Shown piece after piece: positions 599 through 62,352 of a DNA stretch of 62,352 nucleotides. The position numbers were made by a program, and so were the translations under genes. The stretch spans positions 1-62,352 of IMG/VR virus record IMGVR_UViG_3300050821_003061. The stretch is one strand, 5' to 3'. Below the pieces are notes generated by a model that ran no database searches, was not told where the DNA came from, and saw only the letters and a program-made list of their open reading frames with translations. Source of the stretch: a virus. Numbering within the stretch: the first letter of the stretch is position 1; each line of letters opens with the position of its first letter.

Positions 599-1147
599 AT
601 GGCCAATCCCCCGCCCCCGACCCAAGCATCGAGCCGAACCGTAACCTCGATCGCGATCCCCTTCCTGCGGGTTGTGCTCGACCTCGATCCGACCTTCGAG
701 CGCGATAAGCACGACGAAATCTTTTATCCGTTCGGCGAGGCTGGGCATCGCGCGCGGAATTTCTACGGTGATCCTTACGTGTCCGGCGCCTATGCGCCTC
801 CTGTCAGCGGATCGCCGGTCAATATCTCGATCCCGGTCATTTCCGGTTCGCCGACTGTCGGGAAGACACTCCAAGCGTCAACTGGAACATGGTCAGGATC
901 GCCGACGAGCTTCGTCTACCGTTGGTTCCAGAACGGCGTACCGATCATCGGCGCCGTCTCGCAAAGCTACGTTATGACGGTCGGCGATGCCGGCAAAGCA
1001 ATCACGGTCGGCGTCGAAGGCGTGAACAACATCGGGGCCGGGGCCGAGGCGATTAGCGCACCTGCGAGCGGTGGGGCTGGATCACTATTGATCGACGGCA
1101 GCGGACGGCTTCTTGAGACTGGCGCGGGAGGCTTGGAGACGACATGA
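599..1147 (+). CDS. Ig-like domain virion appendage protein
   Basis: A 182-residue protein. Residues 75-155 match the bacterial/phage Ig-like fold seen in appended virion domains: 'PVISGSPTVGKTLQASTGTW' followed by a central YRWFQNG strand and a final 'VGVEGVNNIGAG'. The C-terminal 20 residues are Gly/Ser-rich. Such domains decorate capsids or tails and are thought to bind surface carbohydrate weakly. It overlaps the following fibre-like gene by four bases (ATGA). A related Ig-like module opens the beta-helix protein at 32517. Confidence 0.7.
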   Translation: MANPPPPTQASSRTVTSIAIPFLRVVLDLDPTFERDKHDEIFYPFGEAGHRARNFYGDPYVSGAYAPPVSGSPVNISIPVISGSPTVGKTLQASTGTWSGSPTSFVYRWFQNGVPIIGAVSQSYVMTVGDAGKAITVGVEGVNNIGAGAEAISAPASGGAGSLLIDGSGRLLETGAGGLETT

Positions 1148-2493
1148 GACGATCTGCTTTCGCAGTCTTTTTGGTTGCGATCGCAGTTGTTATAGGACGC
1201 CCCGCATGGGCACAGGCTGTCTTCCCGCAAAACAACTCTGCCGCCTCCGCGCTTACTGGCCTCGAACAGTTCCCGTGCATTCAATCCGCTTCCACCAAAA
1301 TATGCACGATTACTCAGGCCGTCACCTTTACCTACTCGCTGCTTTCTGGTGATCTTTCCTGCACGAGCGGCGGGGCGTGTACCGTAACGAAGACCAACGG
1401 GGCGGCTTTCGGTTCGCTGGCTACAGCGGGCACACCGCTCTCAGTGGCCAACGGTGGCAATGGCACCGCATCGCCTGGAATTACCGCGGGCACGGGAATA
1501 GCGGTAGGAGGAAGCTGGCCCGCGCAGTCGGTGTCCATCACAACGCCAGTTTCTATCGCCAACGGCGGCAATGGAACGGCGAGCCCCGGCATCACGGCTG
1601 GCACTGGCATAACGGTAGGGGGCTCGTGGCCAACTCAATCTGTGGCCCTCACGACGCCCGTATCAGTGGCGAATGGCGGCAATGGCACGGCGACACCTGC
1701 CATCACGGCTGGCTCCGGCATAACCGTTGGGGGATCGTGGCCGGCTCAGTCAGTAGCACTGACGACACCCGTCTCAGTCGCGAATGGTGGAACCGGAACC
1801 TCTACCCCGTCGCTTATCGGCGGGACCAACGTTACGATCACCGGCACGTGGCCAAATCAGACAGTAACGGCGAGCGGCGGCAGCGGAAGTGCGCAAGGTG
1901 ACTATTCAACTGGCAAAATATATCTACCTTATGGAGTTATTCCTAGCATTTCCGCAGGAGCAACCAACGCTAATGTAATCAAGTGCATCCAAGGTAGGGT
2001 TCTACAGAAGCTTACCATCCCGGCACTCGGATTTAACTTTACAACGTTGTCCGCCGGGGGGAATGCCCAAGCCGCCATATACAAGTCTGTTGCAGGTGTC
2101 CCGGATGCGAAAATCGACTCCACTGCCAGTATAAGCACTGCGGCTACAGGATATGTGACCGGCAATCTCGGCGTCTCACGGCAAGTAGGACCAGGTGGCA
2201 CTGATGGAGATCAAGTTCTTTGGTGGTGCTCCAACTTTGACAACAGTGTGGCTGTTGCCACTCCTGGAGCGATAGTACCTGGATTGCAGGACGGCATAAT
2301 TGGGTCTGCCACCGCCGCAAATTTATTCTCTGCCGCATCTAACGTGAGCGGCATTAGTTGCAGCGCTGCGGCCTGTAATGGGGGCTCTTCCACCTTTGGT
2401 ACATGGCCTGCCACCTTGGCAGGATCAACATGGACCGATGTCGTAGCCAGAACTACGGCTATCCCAGGGTTCCAACCAAGCTCGATCCCTTAA
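1144..2493 (+). CDS. Fibre-like protein with signal peptide and four 37-residue repeats
   Basis: A 449-residue protein. The N-terminus is a Sec-type signal peptide: positive start (MRR), hydrophobic core, and an AWA/Q cleavage site near residue 23. Residues 97-244 hold four tandem 37-residue repeats containing a GGNGT or GGTGT motif typical of phage tail-fibre shafts. The C-terminal 200 residues look like a separate globular beta domain with paired Cys residues. A fibre with an export signal is unusual, because virion proteins normally assemble in the cytoplasm. Either this is a secreted phage product or the leader is a membrane anchor used during assembly. Confidence 0.7.
   Translation: MRRSAFAVFLVAIAVVIGRPAWAQAVFPQNNSAASALTGLEQFPCIQSASTKICTITQAVTFTYSLLSGDLSCTSGGACTVTKTNGAAFGSLATAGTPLSVANGGNGTASPGITAGTGIAVGGSWPAQSVSITTPVSIANGGNGTASPGITAGTGITVGGSWPTQSVALTTPVSVANGGNGTATPAITAGSGITVGGSWPAQSVALTTPVSVANGGTGTSTPSLIGGTNVTITGTWPNQTVTASGGSGSAQGDYSTGKIYLPYGVIPSISAGATNANVIKCIQGRVLQKLTIPALGFNFTTLSAGGNAQAAIYKSVAGVPDAKIDSTASISTAATGYVTGNLGVSRQVGPGGTDGDQVLWWCSNFDNSVAVATPGAIVPGLQDGIIGSATAANLFSAASNVSGISCSAAACNGGSSTFGTWPATLAGSTWTDVVARTTAIPGFQPSSIP
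1432..1875 (+). repeat. Four tandem 111-bp coding repeats
   Basis: Four in-frame units of 37 codons each start with a TP(V/L)S motif and carry ANGG(N/T)GT and GSWP or GTWP. The first three are near-identical; the fourth is diverged. They form the shaft of the fibre-like protein. Copy number could change by slippage or recombination. Confidence 0.85.
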
Positions 2494-2514: not shown

Positions 2515-3360
2515 ATGAGAACGGCATTAGTGTTGCTGATTCTACTCAGCACTGCGGCTATCGCACATGCTTACACGATCCAGGGTAGGACGTACGTTTC
2601 CACTTCCGGGACAGACATCAATAACAACTGTACAGTCCAAACAAACCCGTGCAAGACGATCACCCACGCAGTCGCGCAATCCGGTGGTGCAGGCTGGGAC
2701 GTTATCCCTGCGTCCGGCACGTATCATGAGAACGTGGTGGTCGCGAAGTCAGGGAGCGCAGCGGCGCTGCTCAGGATCATTCCGGCATCCGGTTCGCATG
2801 TTTATATTGACGGCACGGGCATGGGTCCGATTGGCATGGACGTTACCGGCAGCTACGTGACGATGATCGGGGGCTATGTCCAGAACTTCTCCGGCGACTG
2901 CATTTATGTGCACGGAGCGGATGCGACTCATCATCAGGTCAATATGCATTTCGATCTTGTCGGCGCGTTGAATTGCGGCGGCTACGTCGTTCATGCCGAG
3001 CACACGGACCTGTTTGATGATGGTTACGGACGCATCTTCAACGGCAAGAAGGGTCCGGTTTATCTTAACGATAGTCCGACGTTTCACATTCACGATCAGA
3101 ACATTTACAATCTGCCACAGGATGGCTATCCTTCTACGATTGGTGCGCTGATCGTCGATAGCGCGAATGGTAGTTTTGAGGGCGTGAACGGGAAGATCAG
3201 CGGCGTCTCGCCGACGCTGGACGCCGAGAGTTCGGCTTATATGTCGATCATCAACAACAATCCACCCGCGCCGTTGTCGAACACTTTTACGTGTGTGATC
3301 AATCCTTCGACGGATCGCGCGACGGATACGATCTCAGGCAACGGGACTGGTTGCCAATAA
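2515..3360 (+). CDS. Secreted beta-helix (pectate-lyase fold) protein, tailspike-like
   Basis: A 281-residue protein with a signal peptide ending AIAHA/Y near residue 19. The mature part begins with 'YVSTSGTDINNNC...NPCKTI', the start typical of DUF1565/parallel beta-helix proteins, and continues with short repeating beta-rungs rich in Gly, Asp and Asn. The fold is common in tailspikes and polysaccharide lyases. No catalytic site can be identified by eye. It follows the repeat-fibre gene at a 21-base gap and probably belongs to the same appendage cassette. Confidence 0.65.
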   Translation: MRTALVLLILLSTAAIAHAYTIQGRTYVSTSGTDINNNCTVQTNPCKTITHAVAQSGGAGWDVIPASGTYHENVVVAKSGSAAALLRIIPASGSHVYIDGTGMGPIGMDVTGSYVTMIGGYVQNFSGDCIYVHGADATHHQVNMHFDLVGALNCGGYVVHAEHTDLFDDGYGRIFNGKKGPVYLNDSPTFHIHDQNIYNLPQDGYPSTIGALIVDSANGSFEGVNGKISGVSPTLDAESSAYMSIINNNPPAPLSNTFTCVINPSTDRATDTISGNGTGCQ

Positions 3361-3822: not shown

Positions 3823-6495
3823 ATGATCCCAACCCTTGCGGGCAACTTTCCGGTCGATGGCTCAGACACAACGACCGCTGGGTTCAGAGGGACGCAAGGA
3901 GGCACGTCTGGCGGCCCAACGTCTTCGAGCGGAGACGAAGACCAGCGCGTGCTGCTCGAACAGGAAGCGCTGCGCGAGGGCAATATGCTGCGTCTCGCGC
4001 AGGAAGCCGAAAGCCAGGGCTCGACTTTCTTTCAAACTGCGGTGCGTTCGTTCTGGGCACGCAACTACCGCGCGTATCGCTCTCAGCACTTCGAGGGATC
4101 GAAATATCTGTCTCAGCGCTTTGCCGGAAGGTCAAAGACCTTCCGCCCCAAAACGCGCGATGCCGTCCGCAAGAAAATGCAAGCCGCCGCAACGGCCCTT
4201 TTCTCGACTGGCGATGTCGTTTCAATCACACCGGAAAACGAAGCCGATCAGGTCCAGGCGGCAAGCGCGGCCCTCAAACAAGAGCTGATAAATTATCGTC
4301 TGTCTCGGGAAACCAAACGGAACGGCATTAAGTGGTTCTTGATTGCCTCCGGTGCCGTCCAGACGATGCAAATCACCGGGGTCTGCGTTTCAAAGCAGTC
4401 ATGGATTTTCAAAGAGGAGAAAACCGACAAGCGCGGCGAGAACGAGCGCCGTAACGAACAGAGTTTTGCTTTGTCCCAAAGCATTCCTCAGGGGCCTGCC
4501 ATGGGGCCTGGAGGAGGTATGCCAGGGGCAAACCCCGGGGGCGTCGCGGCCCCCGGGCCGACCCAAGTTCCAGGGGGAGCGCCTGTTGCTCCGCCGGCGC
4601 CGTCCAGCCCAGCAGGTTTGACGCCGAGCGGCGGTGCTCCTCCTGGACCGCCCCAAGGTCTCAGTAATGGGCCTCAAGCTCCAAGTATGGGGCCTCAAGC
4701 TCCAAGTAGCCCTCCGCCGCCGCCAAATCCGCCAGGTCAATTGCAGGCGTCGATCCAATCGCCGCCGTTCGAGCCGGAGGAGCGGAAAAAGACACGGATC
4801 ATCGTGGACCGGCCGGATATCGACTTAATCGCGCCGGAGAACGTCATCTTCGATCCCAATTGCAATTGGACCGATCCGGCGCAATCGTCACAGTATCTCA
4901 GGATCGCCCGCCCAATGTCCGCGGATGAGGCTTGGCTGCACGTCTCGCGCTCGCAGGGGCAAGATAAAAAAATCCCTTTCCTCGATACGCCGATCGAAGT
5001 CTTCCGATCCGCTGTGTCGCCGACATCCGGGCCTTCCGACAGCATCGCAAGCCGTGTGTCTCGTAACGAGGGCACCGACCCGATTATGATGGTCAGCGGG
5101 ACATTCGGGAGGGTCTGGCTTTACGAATGGTACATGCGGATCGCCGGAGCAGACTACACGTTTTGGACGCTCGGCATACAGCGGATGCTATCGACACCGG
5201 TCTTGACCGCCGATGCCTACCCTGAGCAGGGCGGCGCGCGGCCGGTCGTCATCGGCCTTGGAGCCATTGAGGCGTTCCGCCCCTATCCCATGTCGCCGGT
5301 CGAGAGCTGGCAGCCGCTCCAACTCGAATTGAATGATCAGGTCAATTTGAGATTGGACCATCTCAAGCAATGCATTGCGCCTCCTGCGTTGGTCAAGCGG
5401 GGCGCCGATGTCGATCTCAAGGCGATCCAGAAACGCGGCGCCGATCGCATCATCATGATCACCAACCAGGGCGATGTCGAATGGGCGCAAATCCCCGATA
5501 TCCCGCAATCCGCAGCCCAGCAAGACGCGCAACTGAACAGCGATTTTGACAGTCTTGCCGGCGTCATGAACATGGGGACCGTGCAGACGAACCGGCAGCT
5601 CAATGAGACCGTTGGCGGGATGAACCTGCTCGCCGGGGATGCGTCGTCAACCTCCGAGTTCGACCTGTCGGTCGAAACAGAGACATGGGTTGCCCCCGTC
5701 CTTGAGCAGGTTATGAAGCTTGAGGAATATTACGAGAGCGACGAAACCGTGTTGGCGATTGCCGGCGAAAAGGCGAGACTGTTTCAAAGGTTCGGTATGT
5801 CGGAAATAACCGACAGCCTTCTGACGGCGGAAACAAGCCTTACGATCAAAGTTGGGGTTGGCGCGGCAAATCTGCCGATGCAGCGGTTGCAGAAATTCCA
5901 AATGGCGGCGCAGACCGTTGGGCAAGTGCTTGAACCGTTCGTCGTGGCCGGCGTGATCAAGCCGCCAACTCCAAACGTCGAGGAAATTGTTAACACCGTG
6001 TTCGGTGCGGCAGGCTTCCGCGACGGAGGCGATCGATTCTTTACCGATCTTGGCGGTGCGCAAGACCAGGCGCCGGACCCGAAGGCGCAAGCCATGATGG
6101 CCGAGCAGGACACCAAGAAGCAGGCCAACGTGATCGCCGCGCAGAAGATACAGTCGGACGCGCAAATCAAGCGCGAGGAACTCGCCCAAAAGGATCGCCA
6201 GGACGCGGCGAAGATCGAACTCGAAAGAATGCGCTCGCGTACCGAACTCTCCAAAAACGTGGTCTCTATGGGCCACGATCGCGGCAAGCAAGCCGCCGAT
6301 CACGTCCACAACCTGCACAAGCAGGCACAGGATCATGCGCACCAGGCGCGCACGGCACAAAATTCAGACCTTGCAAAGCTCTTTGGCAACGCCATGAGCG
6401 GCGCGAGTGGAGGCCAGGGTGGTCAGAGCGGCGAGATGCCAGGAGGCACCCCTGCCGCGCCGCCAACGCAGCCTGACATGGTGCCCGCCGCATGA
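3823..6495 (+). CDS. Portal protein
   Basis: An 890-residue protein, in the size range of large podovirus portals. It forms the dodecameric ring at the unique capsid vertex through which DNA is packaged and ejected. An N-terminal helical region (about 40-200) is followed by a Pro/Gly/Gln-rich insert (about 225-320), then the alpha/beta core (about 330-690). A long charged coiled-coil C-terminus (about 740-850) resembles the barrel of P22-type portals. It is followed by the scaffold and capsid genes in the expected order. The Pro-rich insert is odd and may be a surface-exposed linker. Confidence 0.85.
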   Translation: MIPTLAGNFPVDGSDTTTAGFRGTQGGTSGGPTSSSGDEDQRVLLEQEALREGNMLRLAQEAESQGSTFFQTAVRSFWARNYRAYRSQHFEGSKYLSQRFAGRSKTFRPKTRDAVRKKMQAAATALFSTGDVVSITPENEADQVQAASAALKQELINYRLSRETKRNGIKWFLIASGAVQTMQITGVCVSKQSWIFKEEKTDKRGENERRNEQSFALSQSIPQGPAMGPGGGMPGANPGGVAAPGPTQVPGGAPVAPPAPSSPAGLTPSGGAPPGPPQGLSNGPQAPSMGPQAPSSPPPPPNPPGQLQASIQSPPFEPEERKKTRIIVDRPDIDLIAPENVIFDPNCNWTDPAQSSQYLRIARPMSADEAWLHVSRSQGQDKKIPFLDTPIEVFRSAVSPTSGPSDSIASRVSRNEGTDPIMMVSGTFGRVWLYEWYMRIAGADYTFWTLGIQRMLSTPVLTADAYPEQGGARPVVIGLGAIEAFRPYPMSPVESWQPLQLELNDQVNLRLDHLKQCIAPPALVKRGADVDLKAIQKRGADRIIMITNQGDVEWAQIPDIPQSAAQQDAQLNSDFDSLAGVMNMGTVQTNRQLNETVGGMNLLAGDASSTSEFDLSVETETWVAPVLEQVMKLEEYYESDETVLAIAGEKARLFQRFGMSEITDSLLTAETSLTIKVGVGAANLPMQRLQKFQMAAQTVGQVLEPFVVAGVIKPPTPNVEEIVNTVFGAAGFRDGGDRFFTDLGGAQDQAPDPKAQAMMAEQDTKKQANVIAAQKIQSDAQIKREELAQKDRQDAAKIELERMRSRTELSKNVVSMGHDRGKQAADHVHNLHKQAQDHAHQARTAQNSDLAKLFGNAMSGASGGQGGQSGEMPGGTPAAPPTQPDMVPAA

Positions 6496-10505: not shown

Positions 10506-10538
10506 GTCCCCCCTTATCTCTAGCCACAGGAGGGCGCG

Positions 10539-23323: not shown

Positions 23324-24979
23324 ATGCGCAAAATGGCCGTTCTCAAGGCGTTCTTTCCGCTTATTGTCCTCGGCGGAGGCATCGCGAATGCCCAGACGCC
23401 AAACTCCGTTCCACTTTCGCCGACGCAAATACAGGCCGCGACCAATGCCGCCATCGCGCCGGCCGTTCCAGGCGGCCTCACCGCTGCCACCCTCAACGGA
23501 ATATTCAACCAATTTGATCCCTTCACAAACTTGTGGTTCGACGCGAGCAACGCGCAGAATGGATTGCTGAATAAATGGAACGGAACGGCGTGGGTTCCTC
23601 TGATCATCACGGCCGCCAATGGCGGGTCCGGCGTGACGACCGCGACGGCGAATACGTTCCTTGCCGGCCCGGCGACAGGAAGCCCGGCCGCGGGTGCGTA
23701 TAGGGCGATCGTACCGGCTGATATTACGACCGCGCTCACGACCTCTCTCACTTCACCGCCGCCGATCGGCGCGACGGCCCCGAACAGCATCGCTGCAACC
23801 ACACTCTCGGCCAGCGGCGCGACAACCCTCACCGGCGCAATATCCGGGGCCGGGGTAACGGCTCTTCTCGCGGCGCCTTCGCCTATCGGATCGACAACAC
23901 CAAGTACCGGGGCATTTACCAGTTTATCCTCAACCCTGGCCTCACCCATTGCCGGAATTCCGTTCAATCCGAGCGTTCCAGTCTCAAGCACTTTTTCGGG
24001 TCCAAATGAACCGGGAATATTGCTGACAGGCGGCATCCCGCTCAATATCGCGAGCACATTTACGACTGCGGGGAGCCAAACACCGGCAGGCGTGGCCTAT
24101 TTCAGCAGCACCGAAACTTATGTTGGCGCGCCAGGCGCTGGGACGTTCCCAGCGGTTTACGGGTTTAATAAGATTGGCGGTGGCGCCCAGGGGCCGCAGG
24201 CTGGGTTGCTCGGCGTTGCGTTCAACGGCAATACCGTGGGCAGCCAGCCATCTGGTCCCTCTGGCGCGATCGGAACCTATGGGCAGGGTATTTGTGGCGT
24301 TTCCGGCTGTACCGCGACATGGGGAGGCGTCATGGCCGCGTATGGCTTTGGCGCCGCTAATCCAACTAATCCCTCGATAGGTTTGGAGGTTGATAATTAC
24401 GACATTGGGACAGATAATAACGGGGTTAGAGTAGACCTGCAATTAGTCTGCGCGAAAGGTAGTTTTGTAGGAACAGCACCTACCTGTACTAATATAATTC
24501 TAGCAAGTGGAAATGCAGGGAATGTCTTTAATTATACAGGCACGGCAACAAACGGAATCAATTTCAATGGCGCGTCGTTAACAAATGTAATTATATCGCC
24601 AGCGTTCACCGTAAGTGGCTTAGGTGATATTACAGGTCGCAACATCGTCGCGAATACACTGAACTTAAGTGGCGCCGTGTTTTGGGGAACAGATACAGGA
24701 ACAAGCGGCGGACAAATCCTACTTGATTCGGGTTCAGGAAATTTTTTCTTTGATGATCTCACTGGCGGCTCGTGGGTTTTCCGCACAACGGCAGCCGCCG
24801 AGGTTGCGAGAATCACGAACACCGGAATACTCAACATAACCGCCGCTGGCGGTTTCGCGGCCAATGGCTCGGTTGCTACGGTGCTCGGATCGTTGGGGCC
24901 ACCGGGATCGCACACGACGGTTCAACAATGGTTGGTCGTTCAAAAGAGCGGCACGACTGGCTGGATTCCTATGTTTTGA
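23324..24979 (+). CDS. Fibre-like protein with signal peptide
   Basis: A 551-residue protein. The ATG at 23324 gives a clean signal peptide (MRKMAVLKAFF..., cleavage near IANA/Q) and is preferred over one 21 bases upstream. The mature part is Gly/Thr/Ser/Ala-rich with tail-fibre-like phrases ('ANGGSGVTTATANTFLAGPATGSPAAGAYR', read in two parts) and no catalytic motif. Bases from about 24400 are more AT-rich than the front, a sign of a separately acquired C-terminal domain. Confidence 0.6.
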   Translation: MRKMAVLKAFFPLIVLGGGIANAQTPNSVPLSPTQIQAATNAAIAPAVPGGLTAATLNGIFNQFDPFTNLWFDASNAQNGLLNKWNGTAWVPLIITAANGGSGVTTATANTFLAGPATGSPAAGAYRAIVPADITTALTTSLTSPPPIGATAPNSIAATTLSASGATTLTGAISGAGVTALLAAPSPIGSTTPSTGAFTSLSSTLASPIAGIPFNPSVPVSSTFSGPNEPGILLTGGIPLNIASTFTTAGSQTPAGVAYFSSTETYVGAPGAGTFPAVYGFNKIGGGAQGPQAGLLGVAFNGNTVGSQPSGPSGAIGTYGQGICGVSGCTATWGGVMAAYGFGAANPTNPSIGLEVDNYDIGTDNNGVRVDLQLVCAKGSFVGTAPTCTNIILASGNAGNVFNYTGTATNGINFNGASLTNVIISPAFTVSGLGDITGRNIVANTLNLSGAVFWGTDTGTSGGQILLDSGSGNFFFDDLTGGSWVFRTTAAAEVARITNTGILNITAAGGFAANGSVATVLGSLGPPGSHTTVQQWLVVQKSGTTGWIPMF

Positions 24980-24990: not shown

Positions 24991-25461
24991 ATGAAAAAAA
25001 TGTTGCTTGTCGTATCGACGCTGCTCTGTTGCTCTCCAGCGTTCGCGAACTCCTTCAAGATGACCTTCAATCAAGTCATGGCACTTCGAGGGGCGCTCGC
25101 GGCGCTCGACGGCGCGCCGCAGATCATCAAGGACGGCTCGCGGGAAACATCGGTGATAGTGCCCTACAAACTTGGAGCAGGTATGCGACTTCTGATCGCT
25201 CGTGATATTGCGAGCGCGGACAAGCTCATCAGCACGGTCAGAACCGCAGCCAAGCCGGTCGCCGAAGAATTGCAAAGGTTGCAAGGCGCCAACGCTAGCC
25301 AGGGTGAGATTGGCAAAGCCACGGCGGCCATCAATGCCCTTGGCGAAGAAGAGCAAACGATCGATCTCGAACCGATCAACACCAAGGAACTTGCGCTCGA
25401 CCAAAATCAAGTCCCAGCCTCCAATCTCGCGGCCTTAGCCCCAATCCTAGTGGACAATTAG
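24991..25461 (+). CDS. Small secreted protein of unknown function
   Basis: A 156-residue protein with a signal peptide (MKKMLLVVSTLLCC, cleavage near AFA/N). Cys residues lie in the leader but there is no clear lipobox. The mature part is helical ('MTFNQVMALRGALAALDG', 'KPVAEELQRLQGAN'), ending in an acidic tail. It sits between a fibre-like gene and the polyvalent gene. A periplasmic role during infection is possible but unproven. Confidence 0.6.
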   Translation: MKKMLLVVSTLLCCSPAFANSFKMTFNQVMALRGALAALDGAPQIIKDGSRETSVIVPYKLGAGMRLLIARDIASADKLISTVRTAAKPVAEELQRLQGANASQGEIGKATAAINALGEEEQTIDLEPINTKELALDQNQVPASNLAALAPILVDN

Positions 25462-28400: not shown

Positions 28401-31400
28401 CAAGCCATCCGCAGCCAGTTAGCGAGCCACGCGGCGAAGCTCATGCACCGAGTCCCACAGTCGGAGCGCCCGGACATGATATTGAGGATCAACCGCTCAA
28501 TGGCGGACTCGGGAATGCTGGACCCCCTAATCGACCCGAAGGCGAACCCGGAGCACTTCGGCCAACAGGCGTTCCTCAACAACATGAGCATCGAGAACCA
28601 TCTGCCGCACCTGAACCTACCGAACATCCTGTGCGCGGAGAACCCGGAGGACATGGCCAACCGCGTCCTACCGAACGACGGCCACCTGGAGTAGAGAACC
28701 GCATTTCGGCTGTCCTTGGCGATCTTGCAAACTATGATGGCAATCGCGTGTACCTATCGACGGTGCGCGCCGCGCTTTCTGACTTGCCACGCGCCGAGCA
28801 AGACGCTGCGATCAAGAGCTATGCGGCCAGCCACGACGTTGGGCTTTATCCAAACGACAATAGGATAACAATTACGCAAGATCAGCGCGACAACGCCGTT
28901 CACATCGGCAATGAGCCTCGACATTTCTTTTTTGTTGGGAACCCACCACCGCCACGCCATGCCGCGCCAGCACGCCAACCGCGCGCGGCTCCGGCGCCCC
29001 CTTCGCAGCCAGAAGCGCCGAAGGAAGCCGAAACCGAAAATCAGGTCGCATACTCGCCAAAGTCCACGGCAGGCACCAAACTTGGCACCCTCGCCCCCCG
29101 CAATATGCGTGACGCTTCTGACGCCGCTCTCGCCAGCGTGGAAAGCCGGCATGGCCCAATCGCCAAATACGTCTCAAGCGAGCTTGGCTACAAAGCCGCC
29201 GATCTTGGCAAGCATTACTCGGCCGAGCAGGTTGACGCTCTCGGCCTCGCAATCGACAACATCGAGCGCGGCGGATCGTTGATCCTCGGCGATCAGACCG
29301 GCATCGGCAAGGGCCGCGTCCTCGCTGGGCTCATTCGGTATGGCCTGCGCAAGCGTATGACGCCGATCTTCGTTACCGAGAAGGCAAACCTCTATGCCGC
29401 CATGTTCGACGACATGACGGACATCGGTATGACGGACATGCTCGGCCGCGAGCCCCGCATTCTACCCACCGACAGCAACTTGAAGCTCCCGATCGGCAGC
29501 CAAGGAACAATTCTGAAAACGCCGGACGGTCCAGAGCAGGAGAAGCAACTTCGCGATGTCGCCGCCAATGGCAAGTTGCCCGATCACGACATGATCATGA
29601 CCACCTACTCGCAAATGCAGACGGTCAAGGGCCAAGACACGGCGCGCCGTGGATTTCTGCGGTTGATGGCACCGAATGCCATCATCCTTTTCGACGAGAG
29701 CCACAATGCCGGCGGCGCGGCAGTCGAGAAGCGCATTGCTAAGGGTAAACCACCGCCGCCGCCAGACCGCGCCGAATTCGCCCGCGAGCTCGTTCAGAAG
29801 GCCAAGGCCGTAGTCTATTCCTCGGCGACCTACGCCAAGCGGCCGGACAGCATGCGGCTCTATTCGAAGACCGACATGCGCTACGCCGTCGCCGACATGA
29901 AGGACCTCGGCGAAGCGATCAAAAAGGGCGGCGTGCCGATGCAGCAAGTCGTTGCATCCGCGCTTGCCGAAAGCGGCCAGTATCTTCGCCGCGAACGATC
30001 CTTCGACGGTATCAAGTACGATATGGAAGTGACGCCGATCGATCGCGCGCTCTACAGCGGGTTCTCCAAGGCGCTGCGGGCGATCAACGATTTCTCGAAG
30101 AAAGCCGGGAAATCCGTCAAAGACATCGACAAGGAAGTCAAGGCCGAGGCGGCAATCGCCGGCCAGGACGCCTCGGTTGGGGCGGCTGGCGCGGAAAGCA
30201 CGAATTTTACCTCCCTCATGCACAACGTTGTCTCGCAGTTCCTGCTCGCCTCGAAGGCGGAGCGCGCGGGCCAGCTTGCGGTCGAGGCGATCAACAGAGG
30301 GGAGAGGCCGGTCATCGCCGTCGCGAACACGCTGGAAAGCTTCGTGTCTGACTATATGGAGCAGACTGGCGCGAAGACCGGCGATCTCATCAGGGCGAGC
30401 TTCGGCGATCTTCTCTCACGCTACCTCGATCGCTCGCGTGTCGTGACGATCAAGAAGCCGTTCGGCGCCGTGACCGACAAGCACACGATGACCGACGAGG
30501 AACTAGGACCCGAAGGGCTGGCGGCCTACCATGCCGCGCAAGCCGTCATCAACGGTCTGGATTTCGGCAAACTCCCGATTTCCCCGATCGACAAAATCCG
30601 CCAGGTGATTTCGCAAGCCGGCCATGCGGTTTCCGAGATCACCGGGCGCAACAATGTGCTCGATTACGGCAAAGGCAACATTCCGCAGATCGGCACGCGA
30701 TCCGGGAAGGAAAGGTCCGTCGCTGGGCGTACGCAGACGGTAAAGGATTTCAATTCAGGAAAGTTGAAAGCGCTAATTCTCAATGAAAGCGGTGCGACCG
30801 GCATATCGCTCCACGACAGCGAGGCGTTCCCGGAAAGCGGACGCGGCCAGCGGGCCATGATCATCGCCCAGGCGCATCCGAACATTGACACGCACATGCA
30901 AATGCTCGGGCGCGTCAACCGCACCGGCCAGGTATCCAAACCGCGCTATGCCCAGCTCGGCGCCGATGTCGCGGCGGAAAAGCGGCCGATGGCCGTGCTC
31001 GCCAAGAAACTCGCCTCCCTCAACGCCAATACGACGGCGAGCGCGAAGAGTGGACTTTCCGGCAAAGGAGCGGTCGATTTCCTGAACCGCTACGGCGATG
31101 AAGTGGTAACGCAGGTCATGCTGGATGACATGCGGGCTCATATCGACATGGGCGAGCCGCTCAAGGAGTCGCTCAGTCCAACAGAACCGATGGAGGACGC
31201 CGCGCGCCGGGCGACCGGCCGCATCGCGTTCCTGGAACCGGATATCCAGGACCGTATCATGGACGCGATCGAGAGCCAGTATAAGGCCAAGATCGACGAT
31301 CTCGACGAGCGCGGAGAAAACGCGCTTGAGGCGAAGCACCTTGACTTACAGGCCAAATACGAGGGTGGCGCGGACATCTCTCAAAAGACCGGCGATAGCC

Positions 31401-34361: not shown

Positions 34362-34435
34362 CCCGGGAAGAACACTTTCTCCAGTGGATTATCGTTCTTG
34401 ATGCCGCGCTGTTCATCCTTTGGATAGTTACATGA
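34358..34435 (+). CDS. Tiny membrane protein before the lysis gene
   Basis: A 25-residue protein (MTREEHFLQW...) that is nearly all one hydrophobic helix. It overlaps the tailspike stop and the endolysin start by ATGA at both ends. It might influence lysis, given its place, but this is only inference. Confidence 0.55.
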   Translation: MTREEHFLQWIIVLDAALFILWIVT

Positions 34436-35556
34436 CGACGGTCCATGTCACTGCGCCGATGCTCGCGGCGTACAACCATTTCCTTGCAGTCGGCTTCACG
34501 GAAAACGGCGCGGCGGCCCCGGTCGGAAACGGCTGCCAGGAAAGCGGCGAGTTCCTGGTCGCCACAATGTTCCGCGCGCATCCCGACTGGTCCGGCGGTG
34601 TCCCTGAGGCTTTGAAGTCCGGCGGCTTCGAGGAATGGATGGGCGATCGAAAGACCGCCTGCATTGCGTTCATCGGACGGGCGGAAACCCGGCTCGGCGT
34701 CGCCAAGGGATCGCTTTTGAATGATTTAGGAACGCAGTGCGATTTCGTGGTTTACGAACTCCAGACCAACCCGAGATATCTCACCCTCTACAGGCAATTG
34801 ACCACCGGATCGCGGTCGATAACGAACCTTACCGCGAACTTCATGGCGATCTATGAGGTTCCGGCGCTCAGGACCGCCAATTTGGACAATCGGATAGCCC
34901 ATGCCGAGGCGGTGGCGGCGCGGGCGAGAGAAATGAAAGCGGCCGTTCCAGTGCCTCAGCCGCGCGCGCCCGCAACCGTTCCGCAAGCGGCGGCACCGGA
35001 GGCGCCGATACCAGTTCCCACGGCCCCAGCGTCTCCGCCCAGCCTCCCCACGATATCACCGCCCGCGGCCGGCAGGATCACCGCCGTTCTCGACAATCTC
35101 ATGGCGCTGCATACGACCTATCTCGCCGAGCGCGCGTCTATTGACGCGGAAATCGCCATCCTCGAAACAACTATCGCAGATTTTGGAAAATTGCAGGGAG
35201 CGGCGCCGAATCCGATTCCTCCACTTTTGCAGAAACCGGCCGCCAAACCGGCGGTAACACCACAACCACAAGGAAACCCAATAATGAATCCGCAAGTTTT
35301 GGCAACAATTAGGTCCATTCTCCTGGCCTTCGGCGGCGCCGCTGTCAGCAAAGGCGTAATCGATGAATCCACGATGACGAGTTTGGTTGGTGGTGCGACC
35401 GCCGCAGCATCATTTGGATGGTCGTTATGGACCCACAGCACGACCAATACCATCGCCGCGGCTGCTTCTCTGCCGGAGGTCCAAAAGATCGTGACAACTC
35501 CGGCGATCGCTAATTCTCCGAAGTTCGCCGCGAACGACACGGTCGTAGCCCACTAA
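34432..35556 (+). CDS. Endolysin-holin fusion protein
   Basis: A 374-residue protein. Residues 1-165 resemble phage tail lysozyme-type muramidases: 'FTENGAAAPVGNGCQESG' with E37 as likely catalytic acid, then 'GGFEEWMGDRK' and 'ANFMAIYEVPA'. A Pro/Ala linker (170-230) and a helical stretch follow. The last 90 residues ('NPQVLATIRSILLAFGGAAVSKGVID...FGWSLWTH') match Pam3-gp28-type holins. Muramidase and holin are usually separate genes. An internal ATG at 35284 with AGGA upstream may release the holin alone. The start at 34432 overlaps the preceding stop (ATGA). Confidence 0.75.
   Translation: MTTVHVTAPMLAAYNHFLAVGFTENGAAAPVGNGCQESGEFLVATMFRAHPDWSGGVPEALKSGGFEEWMGDRKTACIAFIGRAETRLGVAKGSLLNDLGTQCDFVVYELQTNPRYLTLYRQLTTGSRSITNLTANFMAIYEVPALRTANLDNRIAHAEAVAARAREMKAAVPVPQPRAPATVPQAAAPEAPIPVPTAPASPPSLPTISPPAAGRITAVLDNLMALHTTYLAERASIDAEIAILETTIADFGKLQGAAPNPIPPLLQKPAAKPAVTPQPQGNPIMNPQVLATIRSILLAFGGAAVSKGVIDESTMTSLVGGATAAASFGWSLWTHSTTNTIAAAASLPEVQKIVTTPAIANSPKFAANDTVVAH
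35284..35556 (+). CDS. Possible free holin from an internal start
   Basis: In frame with the endolysin fusion. The ATG (codon 285) is preceded by AGGA at 35271-35274, a nine-base spacing. The product (90 residues, MNPQVLATIRSI...) would be a complete Pam3-gp28-like holin with one or two membrane segments. In-frame nested starts are known for other lysis genes. Proof requires detection of both proteins. Confidence 0.5.
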   Translation: MNPQVLATIRSILLAFGGAAVSKGVIDESTMTSLVGGATAAASFGWSLWTHSTTNTIAAAASLPEVQKIVTTPAIANSPKFAANDTVVAH

Positions 35557-56039: not shown

Positions 56040-57773
56040 ATGAAGGGCGAGCGATACCTCGATGCGGCTAACCGCCAGCTCGTCGATCTCACCGCTGACC
56101 TCGCCTATGCGGATATGCCAACCGCAATTGCAAGCTACGAGAACCTGGTCGGCTCGGGTAAACTGCGCGCCGCCGACTACGCGCTTCTCGGTTGCCTAGA
56201 CCGCTTCTTTCTCTGCGTCTGCGTCCTCGGCCGGCGCGACATGATCCATCCGTGGGTTTATGATCGATGTCGCGAGGTCGAAGCCGCGCCTGACGGCTAT
56301 CTCGATCTCTGGGCACGAGAGCACTACAAATCGACAATCATCACCTGGGCGGGCACGATCCAGGACGTGGTAAGCGATCCTGAGCAGACGGTCGCGATCT
56401 TCTCATGCACGCAAAAAGCGGCGCGTAAGTTCCTCCATCAGATCAAGCAGGAGTTCGAAACCAACACGCTTTTGCGGTGGGCTTACGCTGACGTAATTTG
56501 GGCTGCGCCGAAGATAGAAGCTCCGCGATGGGGCCTCGACGGACTCGTGTTGCGACGCCAATCAAATCCGAAAGAGGCGACAATCGAGGCGTGGGGCCTC
56601 ATCGACGGAATGCCAACCGGCGGCCACTACACGATCCTGAAATACGATGACGTCGTGACTCTGGAGACGGTTCGCAATCCCGAAATGGTCCAGAAAGCTA
56701 TGGAAGCGTGGGAGCTTTCGGACAACCTCGGCGCCGGTGATGTGCGCAAGCAACACGTAGGCACGCGGTACAGCTTCGGCGACACCTACGGACAAATTCT
56801 AGAGCGGAACATCTTAAAGCCCAGGATTTATCCGGGCAGCGATGACGGAACACCGACCGGCAATCCGGTCATGATGAGCCTTGAGCGGTGGAAGGAAAAG
56901 CTGAAAACCCAGCGCTCGACCTTCTCGGCGCAAATGCTGCAAAACCCGCTCGCCGGCTCGGAACAGATATTCAAGCCGGAGTGGTTCGAGAGCCGCTGGG
57001 AAGTTCGCCCGGCGGTCTTGAACGTCTACATCATGGCGGACCCATCAGCAGGCCGGACGAGATCGAGCGACAATACCGCAATTGCTGTCGTTGGCGTTGA
57101 CAAAGGCGGATCGCGGTACTTCCTCGATGGCTACTGTCATCGGATGTCGCTCACCGAGCGCTGGGATAAATTGAAAAGGCTTCGCCGCAAGTGGAAGTCA
57201 GAGCCCGGCGTCAAGCTCGTAAAGGTTGGCTATGAACGATACGGAATGCAGGCCGATCTTGAATATTTCCAACTCGAAATGCAAAGGACCGGCGAGGTTT
57301 TCGCGATCGAAGAAATCGCGTGGCCGCGCGAAGGCGAGCACTCGAAATGGTCTCGGATTGAGCGCCTCGAACCTGATGTTCGCGACGGGCGGTTCTATTT
57401 TCCTAGTCTCATATCGGTTAAAGGGCTCGGAGATTGTTATTGGCATATGGCCACCGGTGAAGGAAACTCCGGGGGGAGCCGTAACCACGTTGTAACGATC
57501 CCGATGAAAGGCCCGTCGCGAGCGATGCGCACGGCGAAGGAAGTCGGGCGCGACAGCTATATCGTGCGCGGACTTCGACGCCGGGACGCGGACGGCGAAC
57601 CGTACGATCTCACCCGAATGCTGATCGACGAGTTGCTCTACTTCAAGTTCGCCCTGCATGACGACTTGGCGGACGCGACGTCGAGGTTTTACGACATGGG
57701 TCCGGTCGCGCCCGATCTCGACGAGCAGAAGGTCGCGGACGACGTGAACGCGGTTGATTTCGAGGATGCATGA
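56040..57773 (+). CDS. Terminase large subunit
   Basis: A 577-residue protein. 'AREHYKST' (92-99) is the terminase-type Walker A loop and 'YTILKYDDVVTLE' the Walker B region. The C-terminal nuclease carries 'IMADPSAGR' with D334 and a later 'SDNTAIAVVGVD'. It drives ATP-dependent packaging through the portal and cuts the concatemer. Full length; the start has no clear alternative. Confidence 0.9.
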   Translation: MKGERYLDAANRQLVDLTADLAYADMPTAIASYENLVGSGKLRAADYALLGCLDRFFLCVCVLGRRDMIHPWVYDRCREVEAAPDGYLDLWAREHYKSTIITWAGTIQDVVSDPEQTVAIFSCTQKAARKFLHQIKQEFETNTLLRWAYADVIWAAPKIEAPRWGLDGLVLRRQSNPKEATIEAWGLIDGMPTGGHYTILKYDDVVTLETVRNPEMVQKAMEAWELSDNLGAGDVRKQHVGTRYSFGDTYGQILERNILKPRIYPGSDDGTPTGNPVMMSLERWKEKLKTQRSTFSAQMLQNPLAGSEQIFKPEWFESRWEVRPAVLNVYIMADPSAGRTRSSDNTAIAVVGVDKGGSRYFLDGYCHRMSLTERWDKLKRLRRKWKSEPGVKLVKVGYERYGMQADLEYFQLEMQRTGEVFAIEEIAWPREGEHSKWSRIERLEPDVRDGRFYFPSLISVKGLGDCYWHMATGEGNSGGSRNHVVTIPMKGPSRAMRTAKEVGRDSYIVRGLRRRDADGEPYDLTRMLIDELLYFKFALHDDLADATSRFYDMGPVAPDLDEQKVADDVNAVDFEDA

Positions 57774-58201
57774 GCGATGATCTTAACACTTATCAAAGAT
57801 TGAGACGCGAGGAAGGTGACCATTATTTGGAAGGCATTGAAGATACGTTCGATCGAGGAGGATGCGTGATGACAAGTGAGGTAGAGGCTGCGGCGCGCGA
57901 ATATGATGAGCTGCGGCCACAGCAATACGACGGTCCCCTTTCTCGAACAGCTCAATGTCGGAAAGAGGCGCGCGAGAGCGACGACACAGAAGTCATTTCA
58001 AGGATTGAACCGAACACTGCCAGCTTGTCTCAAACCTACACCGAAGACTATTTGGCGTCGATCGCGATCTCGCTCAAGCGCATCGCGGACGTGCTTGAAA
58101 AACTGCACGCGCTTGAAAAACTCCCAGCAATCGTGCGTGCGAACGATGCGGACGCCTCGCCATTGGATCACCTACGCTCGAATACGGGGAAGGAATTTTA
58201 G
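57770..58201 (+). CDS. Hypothetical protein after the terminase
   Basis: A 143-residue acidic protein beginning MSDDLNTYQRLRREEGDHYL, with a helical leucine-rich C-terminus (IADVLEKLHALEKL). ATGA overlap with the terminase gene. Function unknown. Confidence 0.6.
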   Translation: MSDDLNTYQRLRREEGDHYLEGIEDTFDRGGCVMTSEVEAAAREYDELRPQQYDGPLSRTAQCRKEARESDDTEVISRIEPNTASLSQTYTEDYLASIAISLKRIADVLEKLHALEKLPAIVRANDADASPLDHLRSNTGKEF

Positions 58202-58461
58202 TGGGGAACGTCGTTCCGCTGAATGGCAACCTTCCGATCAAAGGCGAGCCTGATCCTGCCATCGTTGAGCAAATAGAGAACTTGTTGCAGGAGGCGAAAG
58301 ATGGCTGGATCGTATCTTTCGCGTATGCCTATTATTGGCCAACCGACTGCACGGGGCACGGTTGGTGCGTCGGTGCTTACGGCTTTCATCTCGCCGCGGC
58401 GATCCTGACGCTGCAACACGCGTTCTGCGAGATGCTAGCAGAGAGAGCCACAGACCAATGA
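58201..58461 (+). CDS. Hypothetical protein with Trp/Tyr-rich core
   Basis: An 86-residue protein with a GTG start; its centre 'WIVSFAYAYYWPTDCTGHGWCVGAYGFHLAAAILTLQHAF' (in parts) is hydrophobic but not clearly a membrane span. It overlaps the next secreted protein by ATGA. Confidence 0.55.
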   Translation: MGNVVPLNGNLPIKGEPDPAIVEQIENLLQEAKDGWIVSFAYAYYWPTDCTGHGWCVGAYGFHLAAAILTLQHAFCEMLAERATDQ

Positions 58462-59834
58462 GAGCCGCGCTTGCGGTTATCTGCTTTGTGATGCTGTGGT
58501 CGCACCTTCACGCACAGACCGTTCAAAACAGCAACCCAAATCCTCGTCCAGCCGGCATCGTCTCAGCGAATATCGCGGCTTGCGATCCGTATAACCCGCC
58601 AAGCTGCCTCATGCCGGCGGCGAGAACGAACGTGATTGCCTCCGGTACAACCGGCGCCGTCACGGCGACAATGCCGGCCGTGGCGGGAAGCACGAATTAT
58701 CTGTGCGCGATCGACGTCGAAGCGTCCGGTGGCACAGCCGCGGTAAGCCCGTTCACCATCATGGGCCTTTTGGGCGGTCCGTTAACGACAATCGGTCCGC
58801 CGCTGATATCTTCCGCGACCGGAGCTGGTGTTCAGAGAATATGGACGCCGTGCCTGCCGGCAACCAATCCGAACGTGCCGATCACCGTCTCGACGACGGC
58901 TGATGCAACGGCGAGTTCGGTCAAAGTCATGGCTTCCGGGTTTACGTCAGCGGATCGGGGGGCAACGCTGACCGAGAACTCGATCCTCTTCGCGTTGGGT
59001 GCGCCACAAGGCCCGGGTTATGTCGGGCTTCTTCAACTGACTAGCGCTGGGCCTCAAACCACAACCATTTCGAATGGGTTCTGCGGGCCGACAAGCACGG
59101 TTTGCTGGCCGGAATGGTCACCGGATAGCACGCGCATCGTCTTTCAAGCGGCGCTGCCCGGTCTCGGGTCCGGCATCTACATCATGAACAGCAACGGCAC
59201 CGGGCTTACTCGCCTCTCGGCCGGCGGCAGCACTGCCGACTCTTCCCCGAGCTTCGATCCCACCGGGCAGAAGATCGTCTACAACATCACCACCACCGGC
59301 AACCGTCCGTCGATAAACATTATGAATGCCGATGGGACCGGCGTTACCGCAGTCACTACACCGTCTGTCTCGACCTACTTTGTAGAGCCTCACTGGTCGG
59401 CCCAGAATCAGATTGTCGCCCTCTCCAACTTAGGAGGCGGGCAAGACGTCTACACGATGAACATAGACGGCTCGAACCAGACACGGCTCACATCAACCGG
59501 AAGTAGCGGCGATCCCGAATGGTCACCGGACGGCAATACGATCGGCTTCAGCCATACCCCGGACGGCGTGCAGTTGAACGTCTACACGATGCACAAGGAC
59601 GGGACCAACGTCGTTCAGGTTACGAACTTTGTGCAACCGCAAGAAGCTGCCGTGCCTTCCTTTAACTATGACGGGTCCCAGATTGCGATGGAGTGGGATA
59701 CCGGCGGCCTTATCGAAACGGTGACAACCGCCAGAACCGAGGTCTGGATCGTAAATTCGGACGGCACGAATCCGCACACGACTGGCCAGCCGTGCCCGAA
59801 TGTCGGCTGCCATCCAAAATGGGCGTGGAGATGA
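58458..59834 (+). CDS. Secreted TolB-like beta-propeller protein
   Basis: A 458-residue protein. Signal peptide ends near LHA/Q at residue 20. Residues 21-165 form a module shared with the next gene. From about 210 to 458, repeats such as 'PEWSPDSTRIVF', 'GIYIMNSNGTGLTRLS', 'SFDPTGQKIVY' and 'DVYTMNIDGSNQTRLT' match the PD40/TolB propeller. TolB couples to Pal and the Tol system in the periplasm. A phage copy may bind host envelope components or act as a fibre tip. Confidence 0.75.
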   Translation: MRAALAVICFVMLWSHLHAQTVQNSNPNPRPAGIVSANIAACDPYNPPSCLMPAARTNVIASGTTGAVTATMPAVAGSTNYLCAIDVEASGGTAAVSPFTIMGLLGGPLTTIGPPLISSATGAGVQRIWTPCLPATNPNVPITVSTTADATASSVKVMASGFTSADRGATLTENSILFALGAPQGPGYVGLLQLTSAGPQTTTISNGFCGPTSTVCWPEWSPDSTRIVFQAALPGLGSGIYIMNSNGTGLTRLSAGGSTADSSPSFDPTGQKIVYNITTTGNRPSINIMNADGTGVTAVTTPSVSTYFVEPHWSAQNQIVALSNLGGGQDVYTMNIDGSNQTRLTSTGSSGDPEWSPDGNTIGFSHTPDGVQLNVYTMHKDGTNVVQVTNFVQPQEAAVPSFNYDGSQIAMEWDTGGLIETVTTARTEVWIVNSDGTNPHTTGQPCPNVGCHPKWAWR

Positions 59835-60376
59835 AACAAGCAATCAGGTTGCTCTTCGCATCGATCATTGCCTATCTGGTTGTCGATTGGACTTTGCCGC
59901 CCGGCATCTTCGTCCTGTTCGGCGACACGGTGGCGGCGCAGACCACGCAGAGCGGCAATCCAAGCCCCGGACCAATAGGGGTCATTGGGGCAAACGTCGC
60001 AGTCTGCGATCCGTACAACCCGCAAAATTGCCTCACCCCGGCGGCTACCACGCTCGTCAATGCGTCGGGGACGACCGGCGTTGTCTCGGCGGGCATGGGG
60101 AATGTCGTCGGCAAGACCAACTACATTTGCGGCGTCGAGGTTGATGCAGTCGGCAGCGCGACCGGCAGCGTTAGTCCGATGACGCTAGCTGGCGTCCTCG
60201 GCGGCACGATCAGCTATCCGGGCTTCCAGGCTCTCGTCGCCCCAGGCGCGACCTTCATCAGAAATTACAACCCGTGTCTACCGGCCAGCGGCCCAAATAC
60301 CAGCATCGCGTTTGCAACCACGGCCGACGCCACAGGAACCGCAATCACCGTCATTTTATGGGGCTTCACCCACTAA
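59831..60376 (+). CDS. Secreted paralogue of the TolB-like protein's head module
   Basis: A 181-residue protein with a signal peptide (cleavage near VAA/Q). The mature part ('AVCDPYNPQNCLTPA', 'SGTTGVVSAGMGNVVGKTNYICGVEV', 'NPCLPASGPNT', 'FATTADATGTAITVILWGFTH', shown in parts) aligns along its length with residues 21-165 of the preceding protein. Conserved Cys pairs suggest disulphides formed in the periplasm. It overlaps the preceding gene by ATGA. Confidence 0.7.
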   Translation: MKQAIRLLFASIIAYLVVDWTLPPGIFVLFGDTVAAQTTQSGNPSPGPIGVIGANVAVCDPYNPQNCLTPAATTLVNASGTTGVVSAGMGNVVGKTNYICGVEVDAVGSATGSVSPMTLAGVLGGTISYPGFQALVAPGATFIRNYNPCLPASGPNTSIAFATTADATGTAITVILWGFTH

Positions 60377-60386
60377 GGAGACAACA

Positions 60387-61046
60387 ATGGTCGCGCCAGT
60401 CGGCACAACCCAGAAATTCATCAACCCGCCAGAAGATAACTACGGCGTCGATGCGGTCTTCACGGACATCTACCAAAATCCGAACTTCGTCGAGCCGTTT
60501 GGCCTTGGCCTCGCAGCGATCGCGCGCGAAGGTAATATCTTCCGGCAAGTTTCGGTAGCGGGCATCAACCCAGGTGCGACCGGCGCGGACAATGTGTTGG
60601 CTGCCTTCGTGTTGCCGGCCAACTCTCTTGATATTGCCGGCCGGGGCATCAGCCTCACGGCATCAGGAAAGACCGGTCCAACGAATGCCACCGGCAAGCT
60701 CATTCGTCTCTGGTGGGGGGCCACGACGGCGGTCGTCGGGAGCACGATAAGCGGCGGCACGCTCATCGCCGATACGGGATCGCAAACGACGGTGAGCGCC
60801 GGCTGGCTATTGATGGCGAACGTCTTCAAGGCCGGCGCCGCCGGCTCCAACACGCAGTATGCGCAATGCACGGGCGCAATTTTAGGGAACTCGCACCTAG
60901 GGTTGGGCGCTGCCGGCGCGCTCGGTATTCCTCTATTCCCGACCGTGGCGGAAAACGCCGCGATCATCATCGCGGTCACCGGGAACGCGACGACGGCTGT
61001 CGCCGATATCGTCCTGAACTTCTTCGAAATCAACGCAATGAACTGA
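60387..61046 (+). CDS. Virion protein candidate, beta-rich
   Basis: A 219-residue Ala/Gly/Thr-rich protein beginning MVAPVGTTQKFINPPEDNYG, no signal peptide, preceded by AAGGAGACAAC. The composition is like the capsid-adjacent protein at 10539. Likely structural; no family recognised. Confidence 0.6.
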   Translation: MVAPVGTTQKFINPPEDNYGVDAVFTDIYQNPNFVEPFGLGLAAIAREGNIFRQVSVAGINPGATGADNVLAAFVLPANSLDIAGRGISLTASGKTGPTNATGKLIRLWWGATTAVVGSTISGGTLIADTGSQTTVSAGWLLMANVFKAGAAGSNTQYAQCTGAILGNSHLGLGAAGALGIPLFPTVAENAAIIIAVTGNATTAVADIVLNFFEINAMN

Positions 61047-61070
61047 TCCAACAAACAAAGGAGACACGTT

Positions 61071-61802
61071 ATGTCTGGAATAAATCGAATCAATATCAAC
61101 ATCCCGCCGTGGTCTTCACAAGCAGCGACATCGCGTGACGAAGCTATTTCCAAGCTCGTCGCCACATACACACTCGTTGGCGATTTCTATAAATGGACAG
61201 ATGTAAATTCAGGGTGGGGCACTTGGACATATTTGTTCATTGGGTATGGCTATCTTGATGGCATTCCGACAATTGCCACAGTTATCTGTTCTGGCATGAC
61301 TCATCCTCCTTCTGGTTCCCCCATTTTAGCGGCGGCTGATCCTGGTGTCGGTTCTAATACGTGGTCGGCGGTTGGCACGTTGCCTCAGATAGGCATATCA
61401 AGTGGCGGTGGCGGCGGCTGGGGGTCAGCGCCAAATCAGAATTCTAGTGGTTATGTCTGGAATATACCTGGCAATTCTTCGACCGCTGCGGCTGACTTTA
61501 CGGCAGCAATTGCGGCGGTAGCAGCTCAAATGCCGAACACTAACATTTTCAAAAACCTATTCAAGTATGTGGACGCGATTTCAGGTGCTTGGCAGGTTTC
61601 GTGCGTGTGGTTTTCACCTGGCATCGCCCCGGTTAGCGGCTCTGCGTCCAACTGGCCAAACAGCAATATGATGTATGTCGTCACTTGTTCCGGTTCGCCT
61701 AATCCTCCATCGGGTAGTGGGATACAGCCTGTGACGATGCCATCATTTACGCAGACGTTCACGACTATAACCGGCCCGCTCTCATTTGGACCAATGCGGT
61801 AA
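61071..61802 (+). CDS. Hypothetical virion protein, Trp/Ser/Gly-rich
   Basis: A 243-residue protein beginning MSGINRININIPPWSS; AAAGGAGACACG lies upstream. Repeated short motifs (SGMTHPPSGSP, CSGSPNPPSGSG) suggest an internal duplication. Bases here are more AT-rich than the surroundings. Function unknown; probably part of the appendage cassette. Confidence 0.6.
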   Translation: MSGINRININIPPWSSQAATSRDEAISKLVATYTLVGDFYKWTDVNSGWGTWTYLFIGYGYLDGIPTIATVICSGMTHPPSGSPILAAADPGVGSNTWSAVGTLPQIGISSGGGGGWGSAPNQNSSGYVWNIPGNSSTAAADFTAAIAAVAAQMPNTNIFKNLFKYVDAISGAWQVSCVWFSPGIAPVSGSASNWPNSNMMYVVTCSGSPNPPSGSGIQPVTMPSFTQTFTTITGPLSFGPMR

Positions 61803-61879
61803 CCGGCTCTCTTAGGTCGATCGATATCGTGCCGCTGGCTTAACAACCGGCGGCATTGCCATTTAAAAAGAGGGTTGAG

Positions 61880-62352
61880 ATGCCTTTCCCTTACGAGTCC
61901 GATCCATCGACCTATACACCAACATACGGCCCCTCCGGTCCGCCTGGGGTTTATCCTTGGGTGCCCGCTCCGTCCGGTGTTCAGAAAGCCGGTTTCACCA
62001 TCTCCAGTATCGAGAATGAGCAGCGTGATTGGCTACCTGGTAATTTGGGCGGCGGTGGCGCGGGCGGAGTGGGAGCCGGCGGCGGCGGGTCGTCAGGACC
62101 CGGGTATGCCGATGGGACACCCTTGGGCTTTTATAATGGCCCTGGCGCCGCGGATGGTGGCCCTGGCGCCGCGTCCGGCGGGCAGGTTACTCCCGGCAAC
62201 GCTCACTATTATTCCGGCTATTGGGCGGGCGTACAGGAAGCCCTCTATGCGTGTGCGATGCCAGGTAGCGCTGCGGTTGCCCATGCGGCTACCAGCGCGG
62301 CTGCCTATGCTTTTGCGGTCGTCGGCGCGGCGGCGGGGGTGTCTCCGGCTAA
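61880..62352 (+). CDS. Gly/Ala-rich protein, cut by the window end
   Basis: An open frame from the ATG at 61880 (after AGGGTTGAG) to the last base; at least 157 residues beginning MPFPYESDPSTYTPTYG. It has Pro/Gly-rich front and Ala-rich end (YACAMPGSAAVAHAATSAAA). It is incomplete at the window edge. A GCCGCTGG/CCGGCGGC hairpin lies just upstream (about 61830-61855). Confidence 0.6.
   Translation, partial: MPFPYESDPSTYTPTYGPSGPPGVYPWVPAPSGVQKAGFTISSIENEQRDWLPGNLGGGGAGGVGAGGGGSSGPGYADGTPLGFYNGPGAADGGPGAASGGQVTPGNAHYYSGYWAGVQEALYACAMPGSAAVAHAATSAAAYAFAVVGAAAGVSPA

Follow-up and report, generated by a model that had tools for sequence, protein, structure and literature searches.

A putatively exported phage protein joining a TolB-type propeller to a phage head module, found within a set of fibre-like genes with predicted signal peptides

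The product of propeller gene P0001 in IMG/VR record IMGVR_UViG_3300050821_003061 is probably a binding protein that is exported, and not a mimic of TolB. We give about even weight to a more specific reading: P0001 is a binding protein made late, exported by Sec and stabilised by disulfides, in which a phage anchor is joined to a C-terminal domain that can be swapped, and it belongs to an exported fibre-like set. The whole 62,352-nucleotide stretch analysed here (the window) is a virus contig; its genes include an integrase, the terminase and portal, and others for head, ejection and fibres. The analysis computed domains, fold and gene order as well as the recurrence of signal-peptide genes.

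The sequence-only reading had described the span 58458-60376 as a secreted propeller built on a duplicated module. Two adjacent plus-strand genes are present in this span, and its end at 60376 is the end of the head-module gene P0002, not of the propeller gene (Table 1). ATGA overlaps link P0001 to the gene before it and to P0002 after it. A scan of 57600-61100 for promoter-like sites gave 0, where shuffled sequences averaged 1.6, and terminator-like sites showed no excess near P0001. A separate promoter for P0001 was rejected because no promoter-like site lies nearby. The linked genes and the empty promoter scan argue for the preferred reading.

Table 1. Features of the window discussed in the text. 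Residue numbers refer to the P0001 product; signal peptides are predicted.
Feature	Position	Strand	Description
Terminase large subunit	56040..57773	+	phrog_38, 7e-40; 93% in relative; upstream border of cargo interval
86-aa ORF	58201..58461	+	ATGA overlap of its stop with the P0001 start
Propeller gene P0001	58458..59834	+	458 aa; signal peptide, phage-type head module, linker, six-bladed PD40/TolB-type propeller
P0001 parts			signal peptide, residues 1-19; head, about 20-168; linker; propeller, about 179-458
P0001 cysteines			head 42, 50, 83, 132; propeller 209, 216, 446, 451
Head-module gene P0002	59831..60376	+	181 aa; signal-like N-terminus and head module only
219-aa gene	60387..61046	+	shares its first 29 residues with the relative's LamG spike-like protein (751 aa)
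449-aa protein	1144..2493	+	signal peptide; VANGGTGT-type fibre-like repeats; 8 mature Cys; C-terminal domain as in two other contigs
281-aa protein	2515..3360	+	signal peptide; 6 mature Cys; resembles a beta-helix, by eye only
Portal protein	3823..6495	+	phrog_1216, 3e-24; downstream border of interval
551-aa fibre-like protein	23324..24979	+	signal peptide; 4 mature Cys
156-aa protein	24991..25461	+	signal peptide; no mature Cys

Both profile searches and structure prediction bear out the PD40/TolB propeller of the sequence-only reading. The proposed check with PF07676 (PD40) gave 26.5 bits on P0001, above the Pfam gathering cut-off of 20.9; in a single-stretch genome search the score was 17.1 bits, below the cut-off. 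Six W-S-P-D-like motifs are found at residues 220, 265, 313, 355, 401 and 454. In our reading these mark six blades, the last of which is closed by strands before residue 210. The fold was predicted from an 82-row alignment, to which 79 of the 80 genome loci contributed parts alongside P0001-P0003; it excluded L022, which carries a stop, and four plasmid loci (L009-L012). The mean pLDDT is 73, with most propeller blocks at 70-95 and most head blocks at 64-85. Residues 1-55 and the linker at 169-207 are under 50 and count as unmodelled. From the single sequence the pLDDT was only 41.5. Foldseek placed TolB in rows 1-19 and a putative TolB in row 20, and VIA-align gave Z scores of 24-26 to the TolB matches, followed by LRP6 at about 22. 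The absence of a propeller from structure prediction had been named as grounds for dropping the claim, and a propeller is predicted. In the model its fold is TolB-like, six-bladed and complete, which supports the preferred reading.

A TolB-like fold match by itself gives no ground for inferring Tol-Pal mimicry. The sequence-only reading had proposed a TolB mimic acting on Tol-Pal; such a protein would bind Pal or TolA and disturb the system, and thereby aid lysis or block colicin-like entry. P0001 shares with TolB the six-bladed propeller fold and, by prediction, an export signal, its best fold matches are TolB, and the TolB equivalog TIGR02800 matches it with an HMM E-value of 9.4e-30. However, the score of 103.9 bits is far below the cut-off of 343.15. 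The TolB N-terminal alpha/beta domain is absent from the Pfam matches of P0001 at E up to 1, and its position is taken by the phage head module homologous to P0002. Nor does P0001 keep the mapped Pal/colicin pocket. At the nine mapped positions, taken from PMC2821528, it keeps one residue, whereas the control, Acinetobacter baumannii TolB, keeps six. HMMER's own alignment likewise gave one of nine for P0001; the control TolB is from Acinetobacter, not from an alphaproteobacterium. The match is moreover to a very wide family, as propeller relatives are encoded in at least 537 of 578 candidate genome stretches. The mimic was rejected on the missing N-domain, the score and the pocket, and we regard it as very unlikely.

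The best 80 of these at least 537 loci belong to Chloroflexota, Armatimonadota, Gemmatimonadota and many other groups. Such PD40 proteins (PF07676) are of the same repeat family as P0001 and 31-41% identical to it; they differ in lying at bacterial or archaeal genome loci. A scan of viral contigs with P0001 returned no matching stretch, and a scan with the propeller returned 0 of 53, the latter being pattern-limited and showing no absence. Only one close relative of the window phage was found, and it is without the propeller. The abundance of PD40 propellers in bacteria and the propeller-free relative would suit a non-functional moron or passenger gene from a bacterium. That origin is extremely improbable for a propeller that is fused to a phage module in a gene overlapping its neighbours. 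In addition, the propeller GC3 of 0.705 falls inside the range of the late genes (0.676 ± 0.06, n = 34 blocks). Recent bacterial acquisition judged by composition was rejected, since this value is ordinary for late genes.

Sequence comparison identified P0002 as the head module alone, as the sequence-only reading had said of the next gene. Residues 10-163 of P0001 are 50% identical to it over 155 aa (blastp 2e-37), and blastp found no third copy within the window. The P0002 homologue in the relative, IMGVR_UViG_3300031718_000009, is 77% identical to P0002 and 52-53% identical to the P0001 head. Because the P0001 head is about equally far from P0002 and from the relative's homologue, the duplication is probably old and predates the divergence of the two phages. 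The earlier idea that the propeller was fused to a duplicated head copy thus stands as to the shared head next door, and is qualified as to the probable age of the duplication. Four head cysteines are invariant across P0001, P0002 and the relative's homologue, in agreement with the Cys-containing head described earlier.

In the viral structure library, Foldseek matched the head to protein A0A384UJB3 of Curvibacter phage P26059B (126 aa, 27% over 122 columns). We take this to be P26059B gp41 (ASJ79317.1), equated by length and match rather than by a record. It scored 23.5 bits against the head profile and 2.5e-5 in blastp against the P0001 head, E-values being for a set of only six proteins. 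The gene is near the lysozyme end of the Curvibacter phage genome and encodes the head module alone. Unlike P0001, gp41 has no signal peptide, no cysteines and no propeller. The match indicates a head of phage type, with cysteines only in the versions that carry predicted signal peptides. The invariant cysteines, set against this Cys-free homologue without a signal peptide, point to the disulfide-stabilised, exported protein that we prefer. Head-module scans matched none of 25 candidate genome stretches, 1 of 7 and 1 of 49 viral contigs, with nothing beyond the one relative, and nothing among plasmids and phages. As a query, the Curvibacter homologue found its own phage only.

Signal peptides were called by visual inspection and with a home-made rule that has loose and stricter settings. 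The P0001 N-terminus is of Sec type, reading MRAALAVICFVMLWSHLHA with a cleavage-like site before the Q that follows. That of P0002 is longer and hydrophobic (MKQAIRLLF...DTVAA, then Q), with putative cleavage after VAA at residue 36. P0001 passes the loose setting, P0002 passes it only at a poorer site, and both fail the stricter thresholds. The signal peptide of the sequence-only reading is thus recovered on P0001 by eye and by the loose rule, and not by the strict one. Sec export of both proteins is likely judging by their N-termini, and signal-type N-termini on both genes favour the preferred reading, whereas their failure at the stricter thresholds counts against it.

The oddity is wider than the sequence-only reading saw, in that several fibre-like genes of this phage carry predicted signal peptides. 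The loose rule flagged 9 of 53 window genes. Six were judged credible, namely P0001, P0002 and four others whose signal peptides are clear (Table 1); those at 10539, 17774 and 35937 were set aside as weak. Mature cysteine counts are even in all six (8 in P0001, 4 in P0002, then 8, 6, 4 and 0), as would be expected on the preferred reading. The 449- and 551-aa proteins look fibre-like by eye, with VANGGTGT and similar repeats, and neither has a PHROGs family at E up to 0.01, a point against the preferred reading. In the relative, the 551-aa homologue is 67-72% identical over the signal peptide and the N-terminal ~200 aa, and the remainder is divergent. A conserved N-terminal part with a divergent C-terminal part is usual for receptor-binding fibres. 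This pattern, with the signal peptide in the conserved part, also favours the preferred reading.

Few or no signal-peptide genes were found in control phages. A single rule, which also misses the relative's P0002 homologue, hit 4 of 43 large ORFs in the window, 0 of 34 in PTXU04, 0 of 39 in Bas95, 1 of 36 in lambda (Lom), 2 of 34 in Vibrio phage 1.232 and 0 of 12 in the relative's locus L006. When the scan was made stricter and a ribosome-site filter was added, it gave four in the window, two and three in the phage contigs L100 and L101, one each in Vibrio phage 1.232 and lambda, and none in the relative, PTXU04, Bas95, the Curvibacter phage or three reversed sequences. One of the four window passes, the antisense ORF 24532-24864, is probably spurious. 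Five rumen phages have 2, 1, 0, 0 and 0 signal peptides according to PMC5723332. In Vibrio phage 1.232, two adjoining signal-peptide genes follow the late genes (L095 33721-34726).

Signal-peptide genes recur in L100 and L101. The C-terminal domain of the 449-aa protein is 43-47% identical to signal-peptide proteins of these contigs, whose genes are located between the portal and major head genes beside further signal-peptide genes; portal and head labels come from gene order and a portal match. This recurrence, together with the few or no hits in control phages, supports the preferred reading. In L100 these runs around the portal gene and the major head gene cover 5133-7898 and 10208-10936, and in L101 they cover 5488-7901 and 10258-10881. 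A 456-aa member appears SGNH-hydrolase-like by eye. In both contigs a signal-peptide gene follows the head protein; its matches to the Pam5 cement protein were only weak, in a two-protein set. A further candidate phage propeller, L102 5995-7872 (MZ188970 gp44, labelled 6-phosphogluconolactonase), was rejected; by match and position it is a portal, and the label seems wrong.

Similarity to the relative continues from the window end (61800-62352) into its start (1-600), so the record seems to be circularly permuted. The interval between terminase and portal holds two tail-fibre genes in coliphage PTXU04, head- and tail-fibre genes in coliphage Bas95, and only two small genes in Vibrio phage 1.232. 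DNA similarity to the relative ends at the terminase end and resumes 22 bases inside P0002; between the terminase end and P0002, its only DNA matches are two of 59-60 bases. The relative matches the P0001 head and not the propeller, and its slot for the propeller holds a spike-like protein of 751 aa that has a LamG domain match of 64 bits and no signal peptide. The first 29 residues of this protein recur in the window's 219-aa protein. The relative, possibly a fragment, has no match to the 449-, 281- or 156-aa proteins. Gene order and these comparisons mark this as a cargo interval in which fibre-like genes have been swapped, and the fibre and spike-like genes in this slot are a further argument for the preferred reading. 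A 243-aa gene is located before the portal in the window (61071-61802) and after it in the relative (L006 12608-13357), with 47% identity.

The same position and the same coliphage fibre genes would also fit P0001 and P0002 as structural parts of a virion fibre or decoration, in which the hydrophobic N-terminus serves as a virion anchor or is vestigial and no export takes place. The head alone, without a signal peptide, near the lysozyme end of Curvibacter phage P26059B agrees with such a role. We nevertheless find it doubtful in view of the cleavage-like motifs before Q, the Cys-rich mature parts with even counts, and the several signal-peptide genes in this phage and two others. The relative's spike-like protein, which has no signal peptide, argues against it as well.

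In the exported reading, P0001 would be made late and leave the cytoplasm by the Sec pathway of the host. Once its signal peptide is cleaved off, it would fold in an oxidising compartment, where its eight mature cysteines would form disulfides. The head, a predicted phage beta-sandwich, would be the anchor or partner-binding part and probably pairs with co-translated P0002. The propeller would be a swappable ligand-binding part facing an envelope protein or a glycan. P0001 would be part of a Sec-exported fibre-like set that is produced with the virion genes and acts beyond the cytoplasm, either late in infection or on release. It may occupy receptors, giving exclusion and progeny protection, or join released particles; its site of action may be the periplasm, the cell surface or the released virion. 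We infer export, disulfides, P0001-P0002 pairing, ligand and role from the computed features.

Tailed phages normally produce and attach their fibres within the cytoplasm. An exported, Cys-paired fibre-like set, if true, would imply an extracytoplasmic assembly step or a late envelope-targeting programme. We tentatively suggest that some tailed phages run a second, extracytoplasmic late arm, a Sec-exported and disulfide-bonded fibre-like set that occupies envelope targets before lysis or is fitted onto virions from outside. It is possible, and no firmer than that suggestion, that the proteins of this arm are built like receptor-binding proteins, with a conserved N-terminal part and a swappable binding domain such as the propeller.

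Phage-coded exported TolB-like propellers are already known, with one printed case found. This is the Thermus phage Tsatsa 'WD40 periplasmic protein' (PQ109078, XKB89983.1), a TolB-like protein with a signal peptide and six WD40/PD40 repeats, for which the authors suggest defence or exclusion (PMC11437467). It is the only match to P0001 in the phage collection, with 29% identity over the propeller part only (residues 216-390). By analogy, the exported propeller may block later phages by binding a receptor in the envelope or a partner in injection, and the integrase in the window, which makes the phage probably temperate, would agree with such superinfection exclusion. P0001 has the six motifs, and the signal peptide under the loose home-made setting only. 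However, the Tsatsa gene lies in a lysogeny module beside a LexA-like regulator, whereas P0001 lies between terminase and portal, among late genes and without a promoter-like site of its own. PADLOC matched none of six proteins at E up to 0.01. Exclusion as the main role is therefore unlikely in our estimate. In partly accessible sources, which do not show absence in print, a literature search did not find the propeller-phage head fusion, its fibre slot or its signal-peptide fibre-like company described, and a search for secreted fibre-like phage proteins likewise found nothing of the kind, again without showing absence in print.

The window phage appears to be a virus of soil bacteria. Its integrase matches 54 plasmid records, five of them from Pseudomonas. 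The ten best, 27-41% identical, are all alphaproteobacterial by genus name, so that the host is probably an alphaproteobacterium. Elsewhere in the window, the families matched by a 2326-aa protein (25469-32449) are endolysin, DarB-like and methyltransferase. A single ORF at 34420-35556 has matches to Phage_lysozyme2 and holin_10 (Pam3 gp28 type), and may be an endolysin-holin fusion.
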